From Rudaea sp. 3F27F6 (lineage in GTDB: Bacteria > Pseudomonadota > Gammaproteobacteria > Xanthomonadales > Rhodanobacteraceae): 64,000 bases of DNA. The notes below the pieces were generated by a model, which was given only the letters and a program-made list of their open reading frames with translations, was not told where the DNA came from and made no database searches. Below are positions 47,382 to 55,695 of this stretch, one piece after another. Position 1 is the first letter of the stretch. Each line of letters begins with the position of its first letter. A program made the translations under genes and the position numbers. The DNA lies in assembly GCF_005503555.1 (NCBI RefSeq), contig NZ_SCNG01000005.1, positions 310,001 to 374,000 of the forward strand, read 5' to 3'.

Positions 47382-48263
47382 ATGAAAATCGCCCTGGCTC
47401 AATGGCGCATCGAGGCGCCCGCTTCGTTCGCGGAATTCGCCGCACGCATTTCGGCCGAAGCGGAGTCGGCGGCCGGGCAGGGCGCGCGCATCGTCGTGCT
47501 GCCGGAATACCTCGCACTCGAACTTGCCGCGACATTGGACGCGGCAACGCGCGCCGACTTTGCGGCAACCCTGGCCGCGCTGCAGCCGATCCATGCCGAT
47601 TGGCTGCGTTTGTTTTCCGCGCTGGCGGTCAAGCACGGTATCCATCTGCTCGCCGGCACTTTTCTTCTCGCCCAGGCGAACGGCCGCTATCGCAATCGCG
47701 CCTATCTGTTCGCGCCGGACGGCGCGCACGTCTTTCAGGACAAGCTGACCCTGACCGGCTTCGAAAATGCCGCGCGCGTGATCGAGCCCGGCGACGCACT
47801 CAAAGTGTTCGATACGCCGCACGGACGCATCGGCATTGCCATCTGCTACGACAGCGAATTCCCGCTCTACGCGCGCGCGCAACGCGAAGCCGGCACGCGC
47901 TTGCTGCTCGTGCCGAGCTGCACCGACACCGAAGCCGGCGCGACGCGCGTGCGCATCGGCTGCATGGCGCGCGCGCTCGAAAACCGCATCTACGTTGCGC
48001 AGTCGGTCACCGCGGGGCAAGCGCCCGACAATCCCGCGCTCGACACCAACACCGGCCGCGCGGCGCTCTACGTCGCCAGCGACCGCGGCCTGCCGGAAGA
48101 CGGCGTCGTCGCCGCAGCGCAGCCCGGCGCAACATGGCTGATCGCGGAAGTCGATCTCGCCGCGCTGGAGGCGACCGCGGGCAATGCGCAAGTCGCCGTT
48201 CCGGCCGATTGGCTGCAGCAGTCGCGTCCGAGCGTGGCCCGAGCCACGGTCGAAGTTCTGTAG
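47382..48263 (+). CDS. Carbon-nitrogen hydrolase (nitrilase/amidase family)
   Basis: 293 residues. The catalytic triad is visible: Glu in VVLPEYLAL, Lys in FQDKLTLT and Cys in AICYDSEFP. It hydrolyses an amide or nitrile C-N bond. No signal peptide. It begins 96 nt after, and divergent from, the DUF72 gene. An omega-amidase or carbamoylase role is possible but unproven. Confidence 0.9.
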   Translation: MKIALAQWRIEAPASFAEFAARISAEAESAAGQGARIVVLPEYLALELAATLDAATRADFAATLAALQPIHADWLRLFSALAVKHGIHLLAGTFLLAQANGRYRNRAYLFAPDGAHVFQDKLTLTGFENAARVIEPGDALKVFDTPHGRIGIAICYDSEFPLYARAQREAGTRLLLVPSCTDTEAGATRVRIGCMARALENRIYVAQSVTAGQAPDNPALDTNTGRAALYVASDRGLPEDGVVAAAQPGATWLIAEVDLAALEATAGNAQVAVPADWLQQSRPSVARATVEVL

Positions 48264-48691
48264 ATTTCGTCGCAAAACGCCATGCGCGATCAGCGGCGCG
48301 CGTCACAGTGCGCGTGACGGCGTGCGCGGTTTTGCGTGCGTCTCAGCCACTGCAACAATCGTGTCATCTCATATGCGCAAAGCGGGATGACGGATCTATG
48401 CCGGCGACGTTGTTGGCCGACTCGATTCGTTGCTTCGTAAAAACCGCTTCGCGAGACATTTGATCGACTGCGGAATCATCGGATGCAGTTGTACATTTGC
48501 AATTAAAATCGACAATTCTGGATTGAAAATTTCGTTTGCATTGTAATCGATCTTCGTGCAATAGAATTCGGCAATCGCAATGAATGCGGAACTCGATGCG
48601 GCTTATGTAGTCGTGTGGTAGCGAAGAAACGAGGCCGGCATGAGCGGCGCAAGCGGCATTTCAAATCGGGACGAATAAAGGAGCTGTGCTC
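48264..48691. other. 428-bp intergenic region
   Basis: No supportable gene. A degenerate GTCATCTC...GGGATGAC stem at 48361-48391 looks like a decayed REP hairpin. The stretch 48480-48580 is AT-rich and probably carries the promoter of the protease-CHAT gene. Confidence 0.5.
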
Positions 48692-50770
48692 ATGTCGGAA
48701 ATCATCGTTTGCCGGACCATGCCGCTCACCGCCACGCAGGCGGACGCCGCCCTGCGGCGCAGTATCGAAATCAATCCCGCGAATGCGGACGGGCACCGGA
48801 TCGTCGCGCGCAGCGAGATCGGCAGACGCGGCGGCCCGAGACGCCTCACCGTTGCGATCAACCACAAATGGCCGACCAACGGTGTGCGCTTGAGCGTACA
48901 GTTTCTCGACAATCCGGAGCCGGAGTTGAGAAGGCGAATCCTCACTCACATGAATGCCTGGTCGAAGACGGCCAACGTGAGTTTCGCGGAAACGCGGGAG
49001 ACGGGTCAGGTGCGCATCGCGCGCTTGGATCAGCCAGCGGAAGTCGCCGGATATTGGTCGTATATCGGCACGCAGATACTCGGCATCGACAAGGATCAGC
49101 CGACGCTCAATCTCGAAGGCTTCACGATGAATACCTCCGAGGCCGAGTTCAAGCGCGTGGTCCGGCACGAGACCGGACACACTCTCGGCTTCGAGCACGA
49201 GCATATGCGCCGCGAGCTGGTTGCGAAGATCGACCGGCGCAAGGCGGTCGCCTACTTCGACCGCACCCAGGGATGGACGGAACAGGAGACGCTCGATCAA
49301 GTGCTGACGCCGCTGTCGAAGAAGTCGACGCTCGGCACGACCGAGGCCGATGCGCTGTCGATCATGTGCTACCAGATTCCCGGCGCGATCACCAAGAACG
49401 GCAAGGCGATTGCGGGCGGACGCGACATCACCAAGAAGGACTTTCAGTTTGCCGGTAAGTTGTATCCGCTTTCGACCAAGCGCGCCGATGCGGCATCTCA
49501 GCCGCAGGAAACATCAAAGCCGAAGGCGAGGGCCAAATCGCCGTTGCAGGATGGTGCGGCCGGCAGAGATACGTTTCATATCGTCGTGTTGACGCCGTTC
49601 GAGTACGAAGAACCGCAAGCGTCGCAGCCGGCGGCGAGCAAGGCGGAGAAAAGGCCGCAGTTCCTGCGCGTGCTCGCGAGCTACGCCGGCGCGCGCGTGG
49701 AAGCGGCGATGCGCGTGTCGTCGAAGGGCGCCGCAGCCGCAAAGGGCAAGCCCGCGGGGCCGACGCGATTCGGCTCGATCATCGGCATGCACGAGCGGAT
49801 CAAGACTTACACCAATCTCGGCAAAGGCACGCTGCCGAACAAAGAGCAGTTGGCCGCGTTCGGCAGCGATCTGTTCGAAGCCTTGTTCCGCGACAAGGTT
49901 CTGCGCTTGTACGACGAGGCGCGTTCGCGCCAGCACGGCGGCAGGCTCGACATCGTCTTCACCTCGATGGTGCCGTGGATCGCCGAGAAGCCGTGGGAGT
50001 TCGCCTACGACCGCGCGCGCGCGAGCTTTCTCGCGACGGGAGAAACGCATTTTGTGCGCAACGTGCTGACCGGCGTGCCGGCCGATTTCATTGCGCCGTC
50101 GCTCGGTCCGCTGCGCATTCTCGTCGTATCGGCGCAGCCGAGTGGCTATGGCCTGCTTTCGATCGAGCGCGAAACGCAGTTGATCGAAGACAGCTTCGCT
50201 CCGCTCAAGAAGGCAAAGTTGGCGCAAGTCGAACTTCTTGCACGCGCGACGCCGGCAAAGGTTCACGCGCAACTGTCGAGCGGCGCATTCAACGTCGTGC
50301 ATTTCATCGGCCACGGCGACTTCAACGAAGACACCCAGGAAGGTTCGTTGATATTCGAGGACGACGACGGCGGCGCCGCAGTGCTGAAACAGTCCGCGGC
50401 TTGCGAACTGTTCTGCCAGCGCGGCATCAACCTGGTTTTCTTGAATGCCTGCCGGACCGGCACGGGCGGCCGCGCGGAATTCAACAAGGGCGTGGCCCAG
50501 GCGCTGGTCGCGCACGGACTGCCGGCGCTCGTCGCCAACCAGTACAGCGTGCTCGACAGTTCGGCTGCGCATTTCGCCCAATATTTCTACTGGGCTTTGA
50601 GCCAGGGCAAGACGATCGGCCAGGCTGCCTGCGAAGCGCGGATCGCGGTGAACTGTCTGCCGCAGCGCGAGATCATCGATTGGGCCGTTCCCGTCGTGTA
50701 TGCGCGCGATCCTGCAACGGTTCTGTGCGAGCCTCCGCAAAGCCAGACGGCGGCGCCGGGCACGACTTAG
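48692..50770 (+). CDS. Metzincin-type zinc protease fused to CHAT (caspase-like) protease
   Basis: 692 residues from the ATG at 48692, eight nt after GGAG; a GTG two codons earlier is too close to it. Residues about 45-260 form a zinc protease. HETGHTLGFEH at 159-169 gives the metzincin motif HExxHxxGxxH, and SIMCY at 223-227 is the Met-turn, as in astacins. A charged, low-complexity linker (about 262-355) leads to a CHAT domain with His541 in FIGHGDF and Cys587 in LNACRTG, then ALVANQYSVLD. No signal peptide is seen, so both proteases appear cytosolic or are exported by another route. The SGNH gene follows after 48 nt. Confidence 0.88.
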   Translation: MSEIIVCRTMPLTATQADAALRRSIEINPANADGHRIVARSEIGRRGGPRRLTVAINHKWPTNGVRLSVQFLDNPEPELRRRILTHMNAWSKTANVSFAETRETGQVRIARLDQPAEVAGYWSYIGTQILGIDKDQPTLNLEGFTMNTSEAEFKRVVRHETGHTLGFEHEHMRRELVAKIDRRKAVAYFDRTQGWTEQETLDQVLTPLSKKSTLGTTEADALSIMCYQIPGAITKNGKAIAGGRDITKKDFQFAGKLYPLSTKRADAASQPQETSKPKARAKSPLQDGAAGRDTFHIVVLTPFEYEEPQASQPAASKAEKRPQFLRVLASYAGARVEAAMRVSSKGAAAAKGKPAGPTRFGSIIGMHERIKTYTNLGKGTLPNKEQLAAFGSDLFEALFRDKVLRLYDEARSRQHGGRLDIVFTSMVPWIAEKPWEFAYDRARASFLATGETHFVRNVLTGVPADFIAPSLGPLRILVVSAQPSGYGLLSIERETQLIEDSFAPLKKAKLAQVELLARATPAKVHAQLSSGAFNVVHFIGHGDFNEDTQEGSLIFEDDDGGAAVLKQSAACELFCQRGINLVFLNACRTGTGGRAEFNKGVAQALVAHGLPALVANQYSVLDSSAAHFAQYFYWALSQGKTIGQAACEARIAVNCLPQREIIDWAVPVVYARDPATVLCEPPQSQTAAPGTT

Positions 50771-50818
50771 ATTTGGCCGACATAAATCCGTACCGATTTT
50801 CCTACGAGGAGAACATCG

Positions 50819-52012
50819 ATGGCGACGAAAAGCAGAAAGGGCAAAGGGACGTCGAAGAGCAAGGGCAGCCAAACCGGTAGCCCGAAAAAAGGAGCGAAAC
50901 CGGGTTCCAAGCTCGCGCAGAGGCGCAGGTCTCCGGCCGCGATTCATGAAGAGATTGACGACAAATCTCCGGTGAGTCTCGAAGAAGCGCGCGCCTTGGT
51001 GCGCGCCGCGGCTCCGACGCGTACAGTGGCTCCGGCACGCGCAATCCGACGCGCGGCGGCACCGGTGGAGCAGCCGGTCGCTCTGGAATTGTTCGGCGAA
51101 GAGCGCGAGCGTCTGATCGATCAGCGCAACAAGGAACGCGCGCAGCAACTGCGCGATTATCAGGCGACGATGGCGATCATGAAGCAGCGCGGCGTGAAGA
51201 AAGCGCAGCCGGCGTCGGGCGGCGCGGGCCGCCGGCGCGCATTGAGCGCGGACGCCGGTTCGTTTCAGCCCCTGCAGGTGATGGCCGAAGGCGATTCGTG
51301 GTTCGAATATCCGGTGCCGTTTTTCGGCGGCGGCATCGTGCCGAGGCTGGAGAAGCGTCTCGGCGTTCCGATTCTCAATATGGCCGCGGCGGGCGATGAG
51401 GTTCGCTTTATGCTCGGCGTCGAACAGCGCAAACGCTTGCAGCAGAATCTGCAGAGCGGCTGTCCGGCCGGTGGGCCGTGGGACGTCGTACTTTTCTCGG
51501 GTGGCGGCAACGACATCGTCGACAACCCGATGGCGCTGTGGATCCGCGACTTCCAGCAGGGTGCGTCGCCAGGAAGCCTGATCAATCAGCCGCGGTTCGA
51601 CTCGGCGCTCGGCATCGTGCGCGCGGGCTACGAGGATCTGATCGCCATGCGCGACACGTTCAGTCCGACCACGCAGCTCGTCTTTCACTGCTACGACTTT
51701 GCCATACCCGACGGTCGCGGCATCTGCGGCCACGGCCCTTGGCTCAAGCCGGCGCTCGATCTGCATCGCATCACTCAGCCGGTGACGGCGGCCGCGGTGG
51801 TCAAGGAAATGCTGCTGCAGTTCAAAGGCATGCTGGATAGTCTCAGCGCGGCGCATCCGGGCAAGATCACGATTATTTCGACCCAGGGGACGCTGGATCC
51901 GAAGCCGAGTTCGTGGCACAACGAACTGCATCCGCAATCCAAGGGCTTCGACCAGTTCGCCGGGATGTTTCGCGACGCGTTGAAGACGCTCTTTCCGAAT
52001 CGGGTGATCTAG
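50819..52012 (+). CDS. SGNH/GDSL hydrolase with long basic N-terminal tail
   Basis: 397 residues. The first 45 are Lys/Ser/Gly/Arg-rich and disordered. A helical charged region (about 50-130) follows. The SGNH domain starts near residue 150: GDSWFEYP with Ser160, Gly in NMAAAGD, GGGNDIVDN with Asn231, and WHNELHP with His371. The usual aspartate three residues before the histidine is Asn368, a variant common in this subfamily. It is probably an esterase or lipase-like enzyme. It forms an apparent operon with the protease-CHAT gene. Confidence 0.82.
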   Translation: MATKSRKGKGTSKSKGSQTGSPKKGAKPGSKLAQRRRSPAAIHEEIDDKSPVSLEEARALVRAAAPTRTVAPARAIRRAAAPVEQPVALELFGEERERLIDQRNKERAQQLRDYQATMAIMKQRGVKKAQPASGGAGRRRALSADAGSFQPLQVMAEGDSWFEYPVPFFGGGIVPRLEKRLGVPILNMAAAGDEVRFMLGVEQRKRLQQNLQSGCPAGGPWDVVLFSGGGNDIVDNPMALWIRDFQQGASPGSLINQPRFDSALGIVRAGYEDLIAMRDTFSPTTQLVFHCYDFAIPDGRGICGHGPWLKPALDLHRITQPVTAAAVVKEMLLQFKGMLDSLSAAHPGKITIISTQGTLDPKPSSWHNELHPQSKGFDQFAGMFRDALKTLFPNRVI

Positions 52013-52162
52013 CGCGGCACGCTAGCGCAAAGCGATGCGCGGCCGCCGTACCGTTCGAGGTGTGCGGCGCCGTCGCCGAACTTGGATCGGACGCTCCGTT
52101 AAATTCGGTAACGATGTCGCTCGCGGAGCCTTTGCCGGGCGCCGCGAGAACGACGATCGCCG

Positions 52163-53617
52163 TCAGCCCAGTTTGAGATCGACGATAAACTGCGACGCGT
52201 CGCTTTCGAGCTTCGCGATCACGTCCTTGCGTCTGCGCGCATAGAAGTCGGTGTTCAGCGTCATGCGCTGCGCGGCGGTCCAGAAATTCACCTGCCGCGC
52301 GCCCCACTTGAAGAACAGGAAGCGCTTGCGCTCGTCCGTGCTGCGAAAGTAGAACGCGCCGAGCGCCATGCTGAGCGCGCCGTTGTCGGAACTCTGCACC
52401 GAACCGAGCTGGAAATTGCCGCTGTCGCCGGTCGAAGCATGGAAGTCGAACATGCGTATCGCGCCGTCCTCTTCGGTCAGCGAAGACAGCGCGGCGATCG
52501 ACTGCTGCAGCACCGCGAGCTGGTTCTGCGTCGCGATGGCGGTGATGATCTTGAGCGCGGCCTGGTCCATGCGGAATTCGCCTTCGCTCTGATCGAAGCT
52601 GGTGAAGGCGAACTGCTCCGTCGTCCAGCCGAGGTTTTCCAGGACTTCCACGTATTTCTGGTACCACGCGCGCGTCTGCGTGAAGCGGTCGCAGGCGCCG
52701 CTGGCCGCACGCTGGGCCAATTGAACGGAGTAGAGCACGTCTTCCTTCTGCTGCTCGCCGACGCCGTCGACGAAGGACAGCAGGCTGCCGACGTCGACCT
52801 TGGCCGCGAGCGGCGGCGCTGCAGTCCGCCCGCGCGCGATCGTCGTTTTTGCCGCGCGCGGCTTCTTGCCCGGAGCAAGTCCTCCGCGCATCAATGCGAT
52901 CGGCGCGGGGGGCAGGATGAGATCGCGGACATACGCTTCGAGTCCGACGGCGACGATGTTGTGATCGGGCATCGTCGATTTCGCTTTGCCGCCGCCTTTC
53001 GGCGCACGCGCTTGGCGCATCGGCTTCAGCAGCGCTTGATGCGGTTGCTCGATCAAATGGCCTTGCGCGTCGAATTCGGCACTGAGGACGAAGGCCGACT
53101 CTTGCGCCGTGTAGCCGGGATCCCAGTGCGTGTTTCCGGGCACGTTGCAGTGACCGTAGTGGCCGCCTTGGCTGACCCAGATTTGCGGATTGCGATTGTG
53201 GCCGCCGGGGTCCTGGCCGTTGACCGCCGGCTTGGGCGGTCCGTCGGGCCAGACTCTCGGCACGCCGTGCTCGGCTTCGATCCAGCGGCAGAGGCGCGCG
53301 ACGTTGGCGAGCGCCTGCGGATTCTTCGGCAGATGGGCGAAGCCGACGAGTTCGATCTGCACGGCGGAATCGCGATTGGTCTCGATGCCGGGCGGGTGTT
53401 CCAGGGCGCGCGCGCCCTCGGCGGTGTCGATGTGCTGGAAAATATCCGTCGCGCTCACGGTGAAATGCGGATCGGATCGGCCGCTGCGAAACGCCTCCAT
53501 TGCGCCTTCGGCCGTGCTGCCTTCGGTGGTGTGATGCACGATACGATACGGCCCGCTCACATAGGGGCCGCACGAGCCCGAGATGGGAAGCCATTTGGCA
53601 AATGGACACCGAGCCAT
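52163..53617 (-). CDS. Two-domain N-acetylmuramoyl-L-alanine amidase with unknown C-terminal domain
   Basis: 484 residues from the ATG at 53617 behind AGGGGG; a longer frame upstream is noncoding. Residues about 20-175 form an Amidase_2 domain: VHHTTEG (His28), HFTVS, QIELVG, and GHCNVPGNTHWDPG with His156 and Asp166. The N-terminus lacks a signal peptide. After an Ala/Lys-rich linker (about 235-290) a second domain (about 300-484) contains an all-helical start and a beta-rich FFKWGARQVNFWTAAQ end that I do not recognise. The gene converges on the SGNH gene with 150 nt between. Confidence 0.83.
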   Translation of the reverse strand: MARCPFAKWLPISGSCGPYVSGPYRIVHHTTEGSTAEGAMEAFRSGRSDPHFTVSATDIFQHIDTAEGARALEHPPGIETNRDSAVQIELVGFAHLPKNPQALANVARLCRWIEAEHGVPRVWPDGPPKPAVNGQDPGGHNRNPQIWVSQGGHYGHCNVPGNTHWDPGYTAQESAFVLSAEFDAQGHLIEQPHQALLKPMRQARAPKGGGKAKSTMPDHNIVAVGLEAYVRDLILPPAPIALMRGGLAPGKKPRAAKTTIARGRTAAPPLAAKVDVGSLLSFVDGVGEQQKEDVLYSVQLAQRAASGACDRFTQTRAWYQKYVEVLENLGWTTEQFAFTSFDQSEGEFRMDQAALKIITAIATQNQLAVLQQSIAALSSLTEEDGAIRMFDFHASTGDSGNFQLGSVQSSDNGALSMALGAFYFRSTDERKRFLFFKWGARQVNFWTAAQRMTLNTDFYARRRKDVIAKLESDASQFIVDLKLG

Positions 53618-53706
53618 AAATCCCCCTTGGATTTTACCAAAATCGCGGTTTGCGTCGGATAAAAATCGGGGTGCAGCGTAATACGCCGAACGGCGGCGTA
53701 CAACGG

Positions 53707-53724
53707 CCCATTTTTGAAAATGGG
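53707..53724. promoter_or_regulatory. Palindrome CCCATTTTTGAAAATGGG
   Basis: A perfect 18-bp inverted repeat with a partial third arm (TTCAAAATGG, 53733-53742) just after it. It lies 90 nt upstream of the amidase start in a gap between two minus-strand genes, so it may be an operator for the amidase or a terminator for neither. No T-run follows on the minus strand beyond the arm. Confidence 0.4.
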
Positions 53725-53810
53725 CGCGGTTATTCAAAATGGTCGGTGATTATTTTGCGTCGCGCGAATGTGCTGCGACGCGTGGGCGGACGGGATCGTC
53801 GGTTCGACGG

Positions 53811-54362
53811 TCAGATCGGCAGCAAGGTGGTGACCCACAGCGAGGTGCAGGCCAGGCCGCAGCCGATCAGCGTGGCGGCGAGCACGTCGCTCGGGTAATG
53901 CAAGCCGAGCACGACGCGCGAAGCTGCGACGAGCAGTGCGAATGGAATCAGCAGCGGTGCCAGCCACGGGAAGTACGCCAACGCGACGATCGTGAAGGTG
54001 ACCGCATGCAGGGTGTGTCCCGAGGGAAAGCTGAACTCGTCGAGCGGCAGCACGAGCGGCACGATGTCCTGATGCGTGCGGAACGGGCGCGGGCGCCGCG
54101 TCCAGCGTTTGAGGCCGCGGTACATCGAGGCCGCGACGATGCCGGTCAGTGCCATCTGCAGCGCGACGTGGACGCCCTTGATGCCACCGAAGATCGCGAT
54201 CGCGAGCATCAGCACGTACCAGAAGACGCCGTCGCCGAGGCGGCTGATCACACCGAAGAAGCGCGCGATCGCGCGGCGTGCACCCCAGTGATTGGCGCGG
54301 CGGCACAGACCGACTTCGCGGCTGCGCAGTTCGAGGTTTTGCCAGAGTTGCGTCGCGGTCAT
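53811..54362 (-). CDS. PAP2-family phosphatase
   Basis: 183 residues from the ATG at 54362, which overlaps the stop of the glycosyltransferase (ATGA). Five or six hydrophobic segments. The phosphatase signature is complete: LKRWTRRPRPF, SFPSGHT and SRVVLGLHYPSD. It dephosphorylates lipid phosphates such as phosphatidate or undecaprenyl diphosphate at the outer face of the inner membrane. Coupling to a GT4 gene suggests glycolipid or isoprenoid-lipid metabolism. Confidence 0.9.
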   Translation of the reverse strand: MTATQLWQNLELRSREVGLCRRANHWGARRAIARFFGVISRLGDGVFWYVLMLAIAIFGGIKGVHVALQMALTGIVAASMYRGLKRWTRRPRPFRTHQDIVPLVLPLDEFSFPSGHTLHAVTFTIVALAYFPWLAPLLIPFALLVAASRVVLGLHYPSDVLAATLIGCGLACTSLWVTTLLPI

Positions 54363-55522
54363 GTCGCTCCCTCGCTGAATTTGCCGTTGCCGGCCAGTTT
54401 GTTGTTGGTCGGTCCCAGACCCGCGAGCAGCTTGGCGAAGCTCGCGGTGACCGAAACGGGATTGAGTTCGGCGACCGCGGCGACGGCGGCCTCGCGGATG
54501 TCCGTGCGGGTCACGTCGCTGCGCACCAAGTCGAGCGTCGCGCGCAGGAAGGCGTCTTCGTTGGCGAACGCCACGCGGCGTCCGCATTCGCCGGTCAGGT
54601 GCTCGCGCGCCGCGCCGTAGTCGAAGGCGACGGTCGGCAGGCCGCTCGCGAGCGCTTCGAGAGTAACGTTGCCGAAGGTTTCGGTCAGGCTCGGAAACAG
54701 GAACAGATCGGCGCTGGCGAAATGCCGCGCGAGTTCGTCGCCGCGCTGGATGCCGGCGAAGATGAAGTCGGGGTTTTCCGCGGCGAGCGCGGCGCGCGCC
54801 GGGCCGTCGCCGATCCAGATGTAGCGCGCGTCGCGATGGATTTTCTGAATCTCGCGGAACGCGCGCACGGCGAGCGGCAGGTTCTTTTCCGGGGCGATGC
54901 GGCCAACGTAGATCACCGCGATCTGGCCCGGCTTGAGGCCCCACTGCGCGCGCAGCGCTTCGTCGCGGTGCGTCGGCGAGAACAGCGCGTTGTCGACCGC
55001 GCGGCGCAGGAGGACGACGTTGCCGAACTTGTTCTCGATAAGGAAATCGCGCAGCTCGATGGTCGGCACCAGGGTCGCCGCGCCCTGGCGATGGAAGCGG
55101 CGCAGGTAGGCGAACACGACCGGAGTGAGGAAGCCGAAGCCGTAGTGGCGCGCGAAGTCGTCGAAGCGCGTGTGGAACCCGGTCGCGGCCGGAATGCCGA
55201 GCGCGCGCGCCGCGCGCAGGGCGGAATAGCCGAGCGGGCCTTCGGTGGCCGCGTAGATCGCGTCGGGGCGCTCGTCCTTCCAGAGCTTGCGCAGACGGCG
55301 TGCGGTCGGCAGGCCGAACTGCAGGCCCGGATACTTGGGCAGGCGCGCGCCGCGCACGAGGATGTCGGGGCCGTTCTCGTCGGCGTCGTCTTCGGTCTGG
55401 CGCGGACGCACGACCTGCACCGCGTGTCCGGCGTCGCGCAGACCTTGCGCCAGGCCGGCCACGGTCAGGGCCACGCCGTTGATTTCCGGTGGAAACGTCT
55501 CGGTGACCATGGCGATGCGCAT
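54359..55522 (-). CDS. GT4 glycosyltransferase
   Basis: 387 residues. The ATG at 55522 is preferred because AGGAG lies 8 nt upstream; a GTG at 55531 would touch it. N-terminal MRIAMVTETFPPEINGVALTV and GFHTRFDDFARHYG resemble the GT4 mannosyl/sulfoquinovosyl group. The C-terminal domain has VIYVGRIAPEKNLPLAVRA and the nucleotide-sugar motif SLTETFGNVTLEALASGLP. It transfers a sugar, probably to a lipid. It is translationally coupled to the PAP2 gene. Confidence 0.9.
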   Translation of the reverse strand: MRIAMVTETFPPEINGVALTVAGLAQGLRDAGHAVQVVRPRQTEDDADENGPDILVRGARLPKYPGLQFGLPTARRLRKLWKDERPDAIYAATEGPLGYSALRAARALGIPAATGFHTRFDDFARHYGFGFLTPVVFAYLRRFHRQGAATLVPTIELRDFLIENKFGNVVLLRRAVDNALFSPTHRDEALRAQWGLKPGQIAVIYVGRIAPEKNLPLAVRAFREIQKIHRDARYIWIGDGPARAALAAENPDFIFAGIQRGDELARHFASADLFLFPSLTETFGNVTLEALASGLPTVAFDYGAAREHLTGECGRRVAFANEDAFLRATLDLVRSDVTRTDIREAAVAAVAELNPVSVTASFAKLLAGLGPTNNKLAGNGKFSEGAT

Positions 55523-55695
55523 GCGCGGCACTCCTGCGTTTGATGCAGGCTAGTCGGCATGCTTGAACGAGGGGTTACGGATTTATGTCTAGCGCGTTAC
55601 GCGGTCGGCTGCGTCACGAATCGGATGCGGTCCGTGCGTTTCAGAGAAAGCGCTCGGACGAGTGAGCTGCGCCGGAAATCGATCCGGCAAGGCGA

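Follow-up and report, generated by a model that had tools for sequence, protein, structure and literature searches.

Here we report the analysis of a gene of Rudaea sp. 3F27F6 whose 692-aa product is confirmed, at sequence level, as an intact M12A/astacin-like metzincin joined to an intact CHAT domain. The gene lies in a 64,000-nucleotide stretch of contig NZ_SCNG01000005.1 (assembly GCF_005503555.1, positions 310,001 to 374,000), hereafter called the window. With somewhat less than even confidence, we propose that the protein may be a latent metzincin that carries its own caspase-like activator, a self-contained two-step proteolytic switch. The metzincin would be made as an inactive zymogen with the first 51 residues as propeptide, in which the invariant Cys7 (C7) would bind the catalytic zinc in a cysteine switch as in myroilysin. 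Once triggered, CHAT would cut the chain after R46 or R51, both in the Arg-rich segment 44-51. With the propeptide gone, the new N-terminus would insert, and the metzincin would degrade cytoplasmic proteins. Its gene shares a cassette with an SGNH hydrolase gene and at times with genes for further hydrolases (a peptidoglycan amidase in the case of the window), and the likeliest outcome would be inhibition or lysis of the producing cell upon infection or stress. The trigger, the toxicity and the role in defence are, like zinc binding by C7 and cleavage by CHAT, what we infer from these comparisons. The wider family, its third domain missing from the window copy, the partner genes, C7 and the Arg-rich segment are new relative to an earlier first-pass annotation of the window.

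The metzincin-CHAT protein and its family

The first-pass annotation had named the metzincin site (HETGHTLGFEH at residues 159-169, SIMCY at 223-227) and the CHAT dyad (H541 and C587) as intact, and both assignments were borne out by conservation and by Pfam, which placed Astacin at residues 60-175 (E 4.1e-6; 27 bits against a curated cut-off of 22.5) and CHAT at residues 391-668 (E 4.3e-30; 105.6 bits against a cut-off of 24). These were the sole Pfam domains of the protein; neither SAVED nor TPR was found by Pfam. Among PDB sequences, the best match of the metzincin half was myroilysin (5gwd; E 1.1e-25, residues 45-261), also its closest solved relative by profile (E 7.7e-35), and the CHAT half matched 8tl0 (E 4.6e-8, residues 471-645), which is named SAVED-CHAT in PMC11417357 (this and all following articles are cited from excerpts). 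The PADLOC model SAVED_CHAT was matched (E 4.9e-12) through the CHAT part alone (residues 463-687). The conserved ANQYSVLD motif includes D622, to which an Asp of 8tl0 corresponds in the alignment; by analogy with separase, such an Asp might bind a P1 Arg.

The zinc site, the Met-turn and the CHAT His and Cys are retained in all aligned relatives. The metzincins were compared in an alignment (A3) of 24 family members that form a supported group (99/96). It omits L021 (96% identical to L020, and with GRRGGPRR as its own Arg-rich segment), duplicate loci (L001, L002, L054-L056 and others) and fragments without an N-terminus (L031, L033, L034). Seven M12A metzincins of only 26-34% identity, termed distant below, were also kept out. 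In A3, HExxHxxGxxH and the Met-turn are invariant except for S/V variation in SIMCY, and so are E170, behind the third zinc His, and the Met-turn Y227. The ratio of nonsynonymous to synonymous substitution rates (dN/dS) among three Bradyrhizobium copies (L026, L035, L089) was 0.11-0.18 for the whole gene, 0.07-0.13 for the metzincin, 0.06-0.18 for CHAT, 0.29-0.89 for the linker and 0.13-0.32 for the C-terminal domain. Because the active sites are kept in relatives and the whole-gene ratio has these values, the match is not due to chance.

An in-frame GTG lies 6 nt upstream of the ATG start (at 48686), and the N-terminus MSxIxC or similar is the start of many relatives too. The absence of a signal peptide, already stated in the first-pass annotation, agrees with a simple hydropathy scan: the first 60 residues showed no hydrophobic N-terminus, with a maximum 17-residue Kyte-Doolittle mean of 0.79 (controls from two other window genes, 2.05 and 2.58), and none of the three window proteins (fusion, SGNH hydrolase, amidase) has a signal-peptide-like start.

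A search for the same domain architecture, for which the first-pass annotation knew no characterised example, revealed a rare and patchy family. A scan of genome contigs yielded 21 family loci, 11 of which encode full metzincin-CHAT proteins of ~890-940 aa (including L021). Fused copies were cut by the contig end in L027 and at the start in L031. In L029, metzincin and CHAT are two genes with an in-frame stop between them, and in L034 ~18 metzincin residues are left before CHAT. L032 and L037 encode DUF7379-CHAT proteins, L033 a CHAT protein cut at its start, and L036, L038 and L039 metzincins without CHAT. Whole-genome searches added two full fusions, one from the window's order (G058) and one from a Bradyrhizobium sample (G496). 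Full fusions occur in records of five phyla (Verrucomicrobiales/Verrucomicrobiaceae, Planctomycetota, Candidatus Binatia, Acidobacteria/Blastocatellia and several Pseudomonadota). Many of these records are metagenome bins, a label not borne by those of Aestuariivirga sp. YIM B02566, Rhizobiales bacterium Y(2018), Bradyrhizobium sp. cir1 and Bradyrhizobium sp. DOA9. The full fusion was present in 2 of 398 genomes of the window's order, the window genome included, in 1 of 299 genomes of a phylum sample (the window's own; E <= 1e-30), and in 3 of the 195 genomes sampled from Bradyrhizobium, the L034 copy being in this sample too. A phage origin was rejected on present data: 50,697 phage records gave one CHAT-only match (30.8%), and a scan of viral contigs with the CHAT alignment (A4) found no family relative.

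No metzincin-CHAT protein was found in open-access titles and abstracts among the papers listed, subscription papers and preprints being outside the search, and the fusion is not mentioned in the excerpts of PMC7159879, PMC8195603, PMC12419801 and PMC9848320.

Relatives carry a third, C-terminal domain of ~200 aa, which was aligned in 18 of them (A1). It occurs once per genome in 15 of the 19 genomes searched, always behind CHAT. The window genome and the three lone-metzincin genomes gave no match, nor did the more distant DUF7379-CHAT proteins of Ruegeria (L040) and G602 (L097). The window protein ends where the linker to this domain would begin. The domain is the obvious candidate sensor in the relatives, and its loss could leave the regulation of the window copy in question. 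A dead archaemetzincin, suspected from the layout, was dropped for want of support from profile and Pfam scans: the A1 profile matched nothing among PDB sequences up to E 10, Pfam scans of the 18 members gave three weak single-member matches, none of them Peptidase_M54, and PF07998 was found in none of 40 relatives searched, with the control matching in three archaea.

Predicted propeptide and maturation site

The first-pass annotation had suggested that one protease may activate or process the other, without giving a direction; an invariant N-terminal Cys and a dibasic segment over the maturation site of myroilysin now point to CHAT acting on the metzincin. Pro-myroilysin is kept latent by a cysteine switch, and mature myroilysin begins with a Gly that binds the family-specific glutamate (PMC9629494). 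By chain lengths and alignment, mature myroilysin (5zjk, 213 aa) starts at residue 40 of 5gwd, and R39|G40 is therefore the myroilysin maturation junction. In two alignments, R51|L52 of the window protein lies over this junction.

C7 is invariant in the 24 family metzincins of A3, and a Cys stands in its column in 31/31 sequences when the seven distant M12A metzincins are included. The segment 43-51 is dibasic in 15/15 CHAT-linked and 0/9 CHAT-free family metzincins, and R51 is present in 15/15 against 1/9 (L036). CHAT-linked here means fused to CHAT or, in L029, with CHAT as the next gene; the L029 metzincin still has the dibasic site. For seven of the nine CHAT-free metzincins the genomes were searched with a CHAT profile, and six had no match at E <= 1e-5, while the genome of L036 (G366) contained distant CHATs only (best E 5.6e-18); for L041 and L042, ~6 kb on each side were seen. 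Among the seven distant M12A metzincins, a dibasic pair at 50-51 is present in one (L024:6919-7815) and not in the other six; as was noticed after the fact, this is also the only one that adjoins a metzincin-CHAT gene.

Partner genes and related cassettes

The features of the gene and its surroundings are collected in Table 1.

Table 1. Coordinates of the metzincin-CHAT gene, its parts and its partner genes in the window.
Feature	Position	Strand	Basis and remarks
Metzincin-CHAT fusion gene	48692..50770	+	692 aa, ATG start; Pfam and PDB matches, relatives
Predicted propeptide, residues 1-51	48692..48844	+	Residues 52 onward align with mature myroilysin
C7 codon, invariant N-terminal Cys, candidate cysteine switch	48710..48712	+	24/24 in A3, 31/31 in wider alignment; putative function by comparison with myroilysin (PMC9629494)
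GRRGGPRR (44-51), predicted activation site	48821..48844	+	R51 aligns with myroilysin R39 at maturation junction
Metzincin catalytic domain (M12A, myroilysin-like), residues 52-262	48845..49477	+	Pfam, PDB and profile matches
Zinc site HETGHTLGFEH (159-169), followed by E170 at the place of the astacin family-specific Glu	49166..49198	+	Alignment
Met-turn SIMCY (223-227)	49358..49372	+	C226 and Y227 invariant in A3
Variable linker, residues 263-292	49478..49567	+	dN/dS 0.29-0.89 in three Bradyrhizobium copies
CHAT region with N-terminal extension, residues 293-682	49568..50737	+	Pfam CHAT 391-668; alignment A4
Catalytic H541 codon	50312..50314	+	HFIGHG, invariant in A4
Catalytic C587 codon	50450..50452	+	FLNAC in window; Cys of FLN[AS]C invariant in A4
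SGNH/GDSL-like hydrolase, K/R-rich N-terminus	50819..52012	+	48 bp downstream of fusion; Pfam Lipase_GDSL_2 E 2.5e-4, below cut-off
N-acetylmuramoyl-L-alanine amidase (Amidase_2) with C-terminal region lacking a Pfam match	52163..53617	-	Pfam E 4.5e-9
Inserted segment with fusion, SGNH and amidase genes	48254..53828	.	~5.5 kb; flanks match G008 and G011

In two genomes of the same genus (G008, G011), the nitrilase and PAP2 genes that flank the segment are neighbours, ~160 and 800 bp apart. The match of the flanking DNA ends at 48229 (G008) or 48253 (G011) and resumes at 53829 or 53832; the fusion, SGNH and amidase genes are therefore an insert at ~48254-53828. In G002 the PAP2 side alone was seen, and the contig of G013 was too short. 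The window gene has no PtuA or PtuB gene beside it; the island is bordered by the nitrilase and PAP2 genes, and its neighbours are ordinary metabolic and transport genes. Promoter-like sites numbered 0 against 1.0 expected, and terminator-like sites 8 against 6.4 expected. On the complementary strand (53811-55531), a long PAP2 open reading frame (ORF) and a glycosyltransferase ORF overlap in different frames over >500 bases, and translation of PAP2 probably starts well inside its ORF.

The window SGNH protein has the motifs GDSW at residue 158 and GGND at residue 229. An SGNH homologue stands beside the family gene in 10/21 loci, in addition to the window and L089, and two SGNH groups, ~30% identical to each other, occupy the same place. 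GDSW is present in all 12 SGNH proteins checked and GGND in 11; the remaining one, from L022, is cut by the contig end, and the SGNH protein of L034 is shortened. The start of the amidase is proposed at M41 of the ORF 52163-53737, where a Geminocystis homologue has its matching start Met. An amidase 63% identical to that of the window adjoins L024, whereas 22 further loci searched for a homologue had none. Pfam gave no match for the C-terminal end of the amidase (52163-52804, minus strand), but ~210 aa of it recur in plasmid records (64 among the matches listed, 45 from Sinorhizobium, 14 from Streptomyces and 2 from Vibrio), with ~32% identity in the best-ranked ones; in the one inspected, L114, it is a separate protein of 258 aa.

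The flanks of relatives were described from longest ORFs weighted by G + C content at third codon positions, a procedure that can miss genes (metzincin ORFs were missed in L093, L094 and L096). CHAT is fused to DUF7379 in L032, L037, L040, L090, L097 and L116 by Pfam and in L091 and L092 by BLAST. On a megaplasmid of Ruegeria pomeroyi (L040:4342-11146), a DUF7379-CHAT gene lies directly upstream of PtuA-like and PtuB-like genes (best E 6.4e-47 and 1.1e-66), the PtuA-like one with a SIR2_2 match. The arrangement suggests a Septu variant whose third component is caspase-like; no open-access paper on Septu combined with CHAT was found. In L089 (Bradyrhizobium), PDC-M54A, which PADLOC lists as a defence candidate, is matched in part (E 1.1e-91) by a gene ~1 kb away from the fusion. 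Plasmid relatives of the SGNH protein form part of larger proteins whose annotations read caspase, trypsin-like peptidase, S8 peptidase or amidase. Combinations with caspase C14 (L108), trypsin (L107) and Amidase_3 plus M15 (L109) were confirmed by Pfam, with an SGNH score at or below the cut-off in L108 and L107, and the S8 case was taken from the record annotation. Distant M12A metzincins adjoin a C14 caspase gene in L043 and lie one ORF from such a gene in L100. The occurrence of CHAT with DUF7379 and of SGNH with varied proteases therefore indicates that activator and effector modules recombine.

Several plasmid loci show further arrangements. A Rhizobium (L108:4824-6734) and a Sinorhizobium plasmid (L110:4773-6689) encode SGNH and caspase in one protein, assigned by Pfam for L108 and by sequence and annotation for L110; both genes lie near C1 peptidase genes, that of L108 also near trypsin-like and YLATT (YEATS-like-associated) genes. 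A Geminocystis plasmid (L107:1468-7431) has trypsin-SGNH, GH19, TPR, amidase and trypsin-M74 genes in a row, its amidase being 59% identical over 38% of the window amidase. On a Paraburkholderia plasmid (L115:5262-11593), genes for CHAT, an SGNH-like protein, an M15 peptidase and a calcineurin-like phosphoesterase lie on one strand; the SGNH-like protein is 31% identical to that of the window and has no Pfam match of its own. On a Bradyrhizobium barranii plasmid (L043:5064-12849), genes for an M12 metallopeptidase, a C14 caspase and a trypsin/PLD-like protein form a row, and a further M12A gene lies upstream.

Among lone metzincins, a Hymenobacter bin (L039:7965-12749) has three metzincin ORFs in a row followed by an SGNH gene, with no family CHAT in the genome. 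A protein of ~660 aa without a Pfam match (L095:7897-9882), with HEMTH and HEGFAD motifs and gluzincin-like by eye, adjoins a lone metzincin; ORFs with similar starts adjoin the lone metzincin in three further Bradyrhizobium genomes (L093, L094, L096).

Alternative explanations and known systems

Several observations weigh against the proposed switch. The window copy is without the C-terminal domain that 18 relatives carry, and the split halves in L029 mean that fusion is not essential. The alignments of the window protein with myroilysin begin after C7; the homology of C7 to the switch Cys of myroilysin lies outside the aligned region, leaving C7 a candidate switch, and with C226 in the Met-turn also invariant, C7 could serve another role. 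A second pair, R22-R23, is conserved in all 15 CHAT-linked metzincins and in the CHAT-free L036 and L038; basic residues therefore occur elsewhere in the propeptide as well. The dibasic rule does not extend to the distant metzincins in the neighbourhood of C14 caspase genes (L043, L100), which lack such a pair at the maturation site. The correlation of the motif with CHAT is not independent but weakened by shared ancestry, with ~3 CHAT-free lineages, because seven of the nine CHAT-free metzincins form one group (90/82); L029, L036 and L038 fall among the fused ones without resolution. CHAT need not cut after Arg, as three Craspases cut at A|S, L|D and M|K (PMC11106740); orthocaspases, which are caspase-like but not CHAT, cleave after basic residues (PMC6426788). 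An SGNH gene was not found in 11/21 loci, eight with enough sequence (L020, L021, L023, L030, L032, L033, L036, L038) and three (L024, L027, L037) with too little downstream sequence to judge, and the window island showed no recognised defence gene.

The same genes could encode hydrolases for attack or foraging, which would work outside the cell or inside a target cell after delivery by a contractile apparatus or release by lysis, with CHAT maturing the protease during release. Astacin-like proteases, SGNH hydrolases and peptidoglycan amidases are usually found outside the cytoplasm, and related clusters hold wall or polysaccharide enzymes (GH19, M74, M15, an annotated chitosanase). The lack of signal-peptide-like N-termini in all three window proteins, however, makes this explanation rather unlikely, as does the scarcity of delivery machinery: among 15 genomes with a family CHAT, the sheath of the type VI secretion system (PF05943) was found in two and a phage-type sheath (PF04984) in four. 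Cargo of a type VI secretion system or an extracellular contractile injection system was rejected, the sheath searches being mostly negative and the window genome having no match to PF05943 or PF04984. To our knowledge, CHAT proteases of known function act inside the cell, which also counts against delivery. Alternatively, the order might be reversed or the reaction occur in trans, the metzincin or a host protease cutting the linker and so freeing or activating CHAT as the real effector. Such a scheme would suit the linker, which is the fastest-evolving part, and the intact sites of both proteases; we consider it improbable, since the conserved basic segment is at the metzincin propeptide junction and not in the linker, and CHAT and the C-terminal domain are retained where the metzincin is lost (L034) or replaced (L032, L037).

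The activation chemistry might instead serve stress-responsive protein quality control or developmental autolysis, and not anti-phage defence; this would agree with the ordinary neighbours of the island and its lack of a known defence gene. We give this little credence, as the very patchy spread (2/398 in the order, 3/195 in the Bradyrhizobium sample) fits accessory or conflict genes better. Finally, the fusion might be a mere co-expression device for proteases with unrelated substrates, neither of which processes the other; the split genes of L029 and the retention of C7 in CHAT-free metzincins speak for it. It appears very improbable to us, given that within the family CHAT-linked metzincins alone are dibasic at the maturation site and that L029, with CHAT as a neighbouring gene, keeps this site.

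For the metzincin switched on by its own CHAT domain, a conflict or self-destruction cassette is probably a better setting than nutrition or housekeeping, because SGNH, lipase-like and wall-degrading enzymes recur nearby (in the window without export signals), the spread is patchy, the genes are inserted, and relatives have Septu genes (beside a DUF7379-CHAT) or a PDC-M54A-like gene (in one Bradyrhizobium) as neighbours. The defence role suggested by the first-pass annotation is thus putative, drawn from association. It is conceivable, if on balance doubtful, that the window protein is the first recognised bacterial caspase-like protease with its own cysteine-switch metalloprotease zymogen as cis substrate, and that it represents a broader group of mobile cassettes, so far undescribed. 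In such cassettes, interchangeable latent hydrolases (metzincin, SGNH, DUF7379 hydrolase, peptidoglycan hydrolases) would be fused to, or encoded next to, an initiator protease (CHAT, C14 caspase, trypsin, S8), and would jointly take the cell apart. If true, a single bacterial protein would contain both a caspase-like enzyme and the metalloprotease zymogen that it activates, a small counterpart of animal protease cascades, with switch and cut site predicted to residue level. Hydrolase cassettes that pair caspase- or trypsin-like proteases with lipase-like and wall-degrading enzymes would be possible new cell-death or defence systems, in which the C-terminal domain could be the sensor.

Among known systems, the window family resembles the NTP-dependent conflict systems in its recombining caspase- and trypsin-like modules, and a metallopeptidase is named as a rare effector of these systems (PMC7159879, PMC8195603, in excerpt); unlike there, an NTPase partner gene was not seen beside the window gene. 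The Septu-linked DUF7379-CHAT protein of the Ruegeria pomeroyi plasmid has a CHAT region 35.7% identical to that of the window over residues 294-679, but carries the hydrolase-like DUF7379 instead of a metzincin and has PtuA and PtuB beside it, whereas the window gene has no such flanking genes. Myroilysin (Myroides, M12A; 5gwd zymogen, 5zjk mature) shares with the window protein the metzincin domain, the zinc site, the Glu after the third His, an N-terminal propeptide region and an Arg before the mature N-terminus; it was solved as propeptide plus catalytic domain, and CHAT is not mentioned in the excerpts of PMC9848320 and PMC9629494. SAVED-CHAT (8tl0) and the TPR-CHAT (Csx29) of Craspase likewise have the CHAT His-Cys dyad in a protease that starts a proteolytic response. 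Their sensor is SAVED, or TPR with the CRISPR complex, whereas no other Pfam domain was found in the window fusion; and the Craspase substrate Csx30 is a separate protein, whereas the presumed substrate in the window lies on the same chain.

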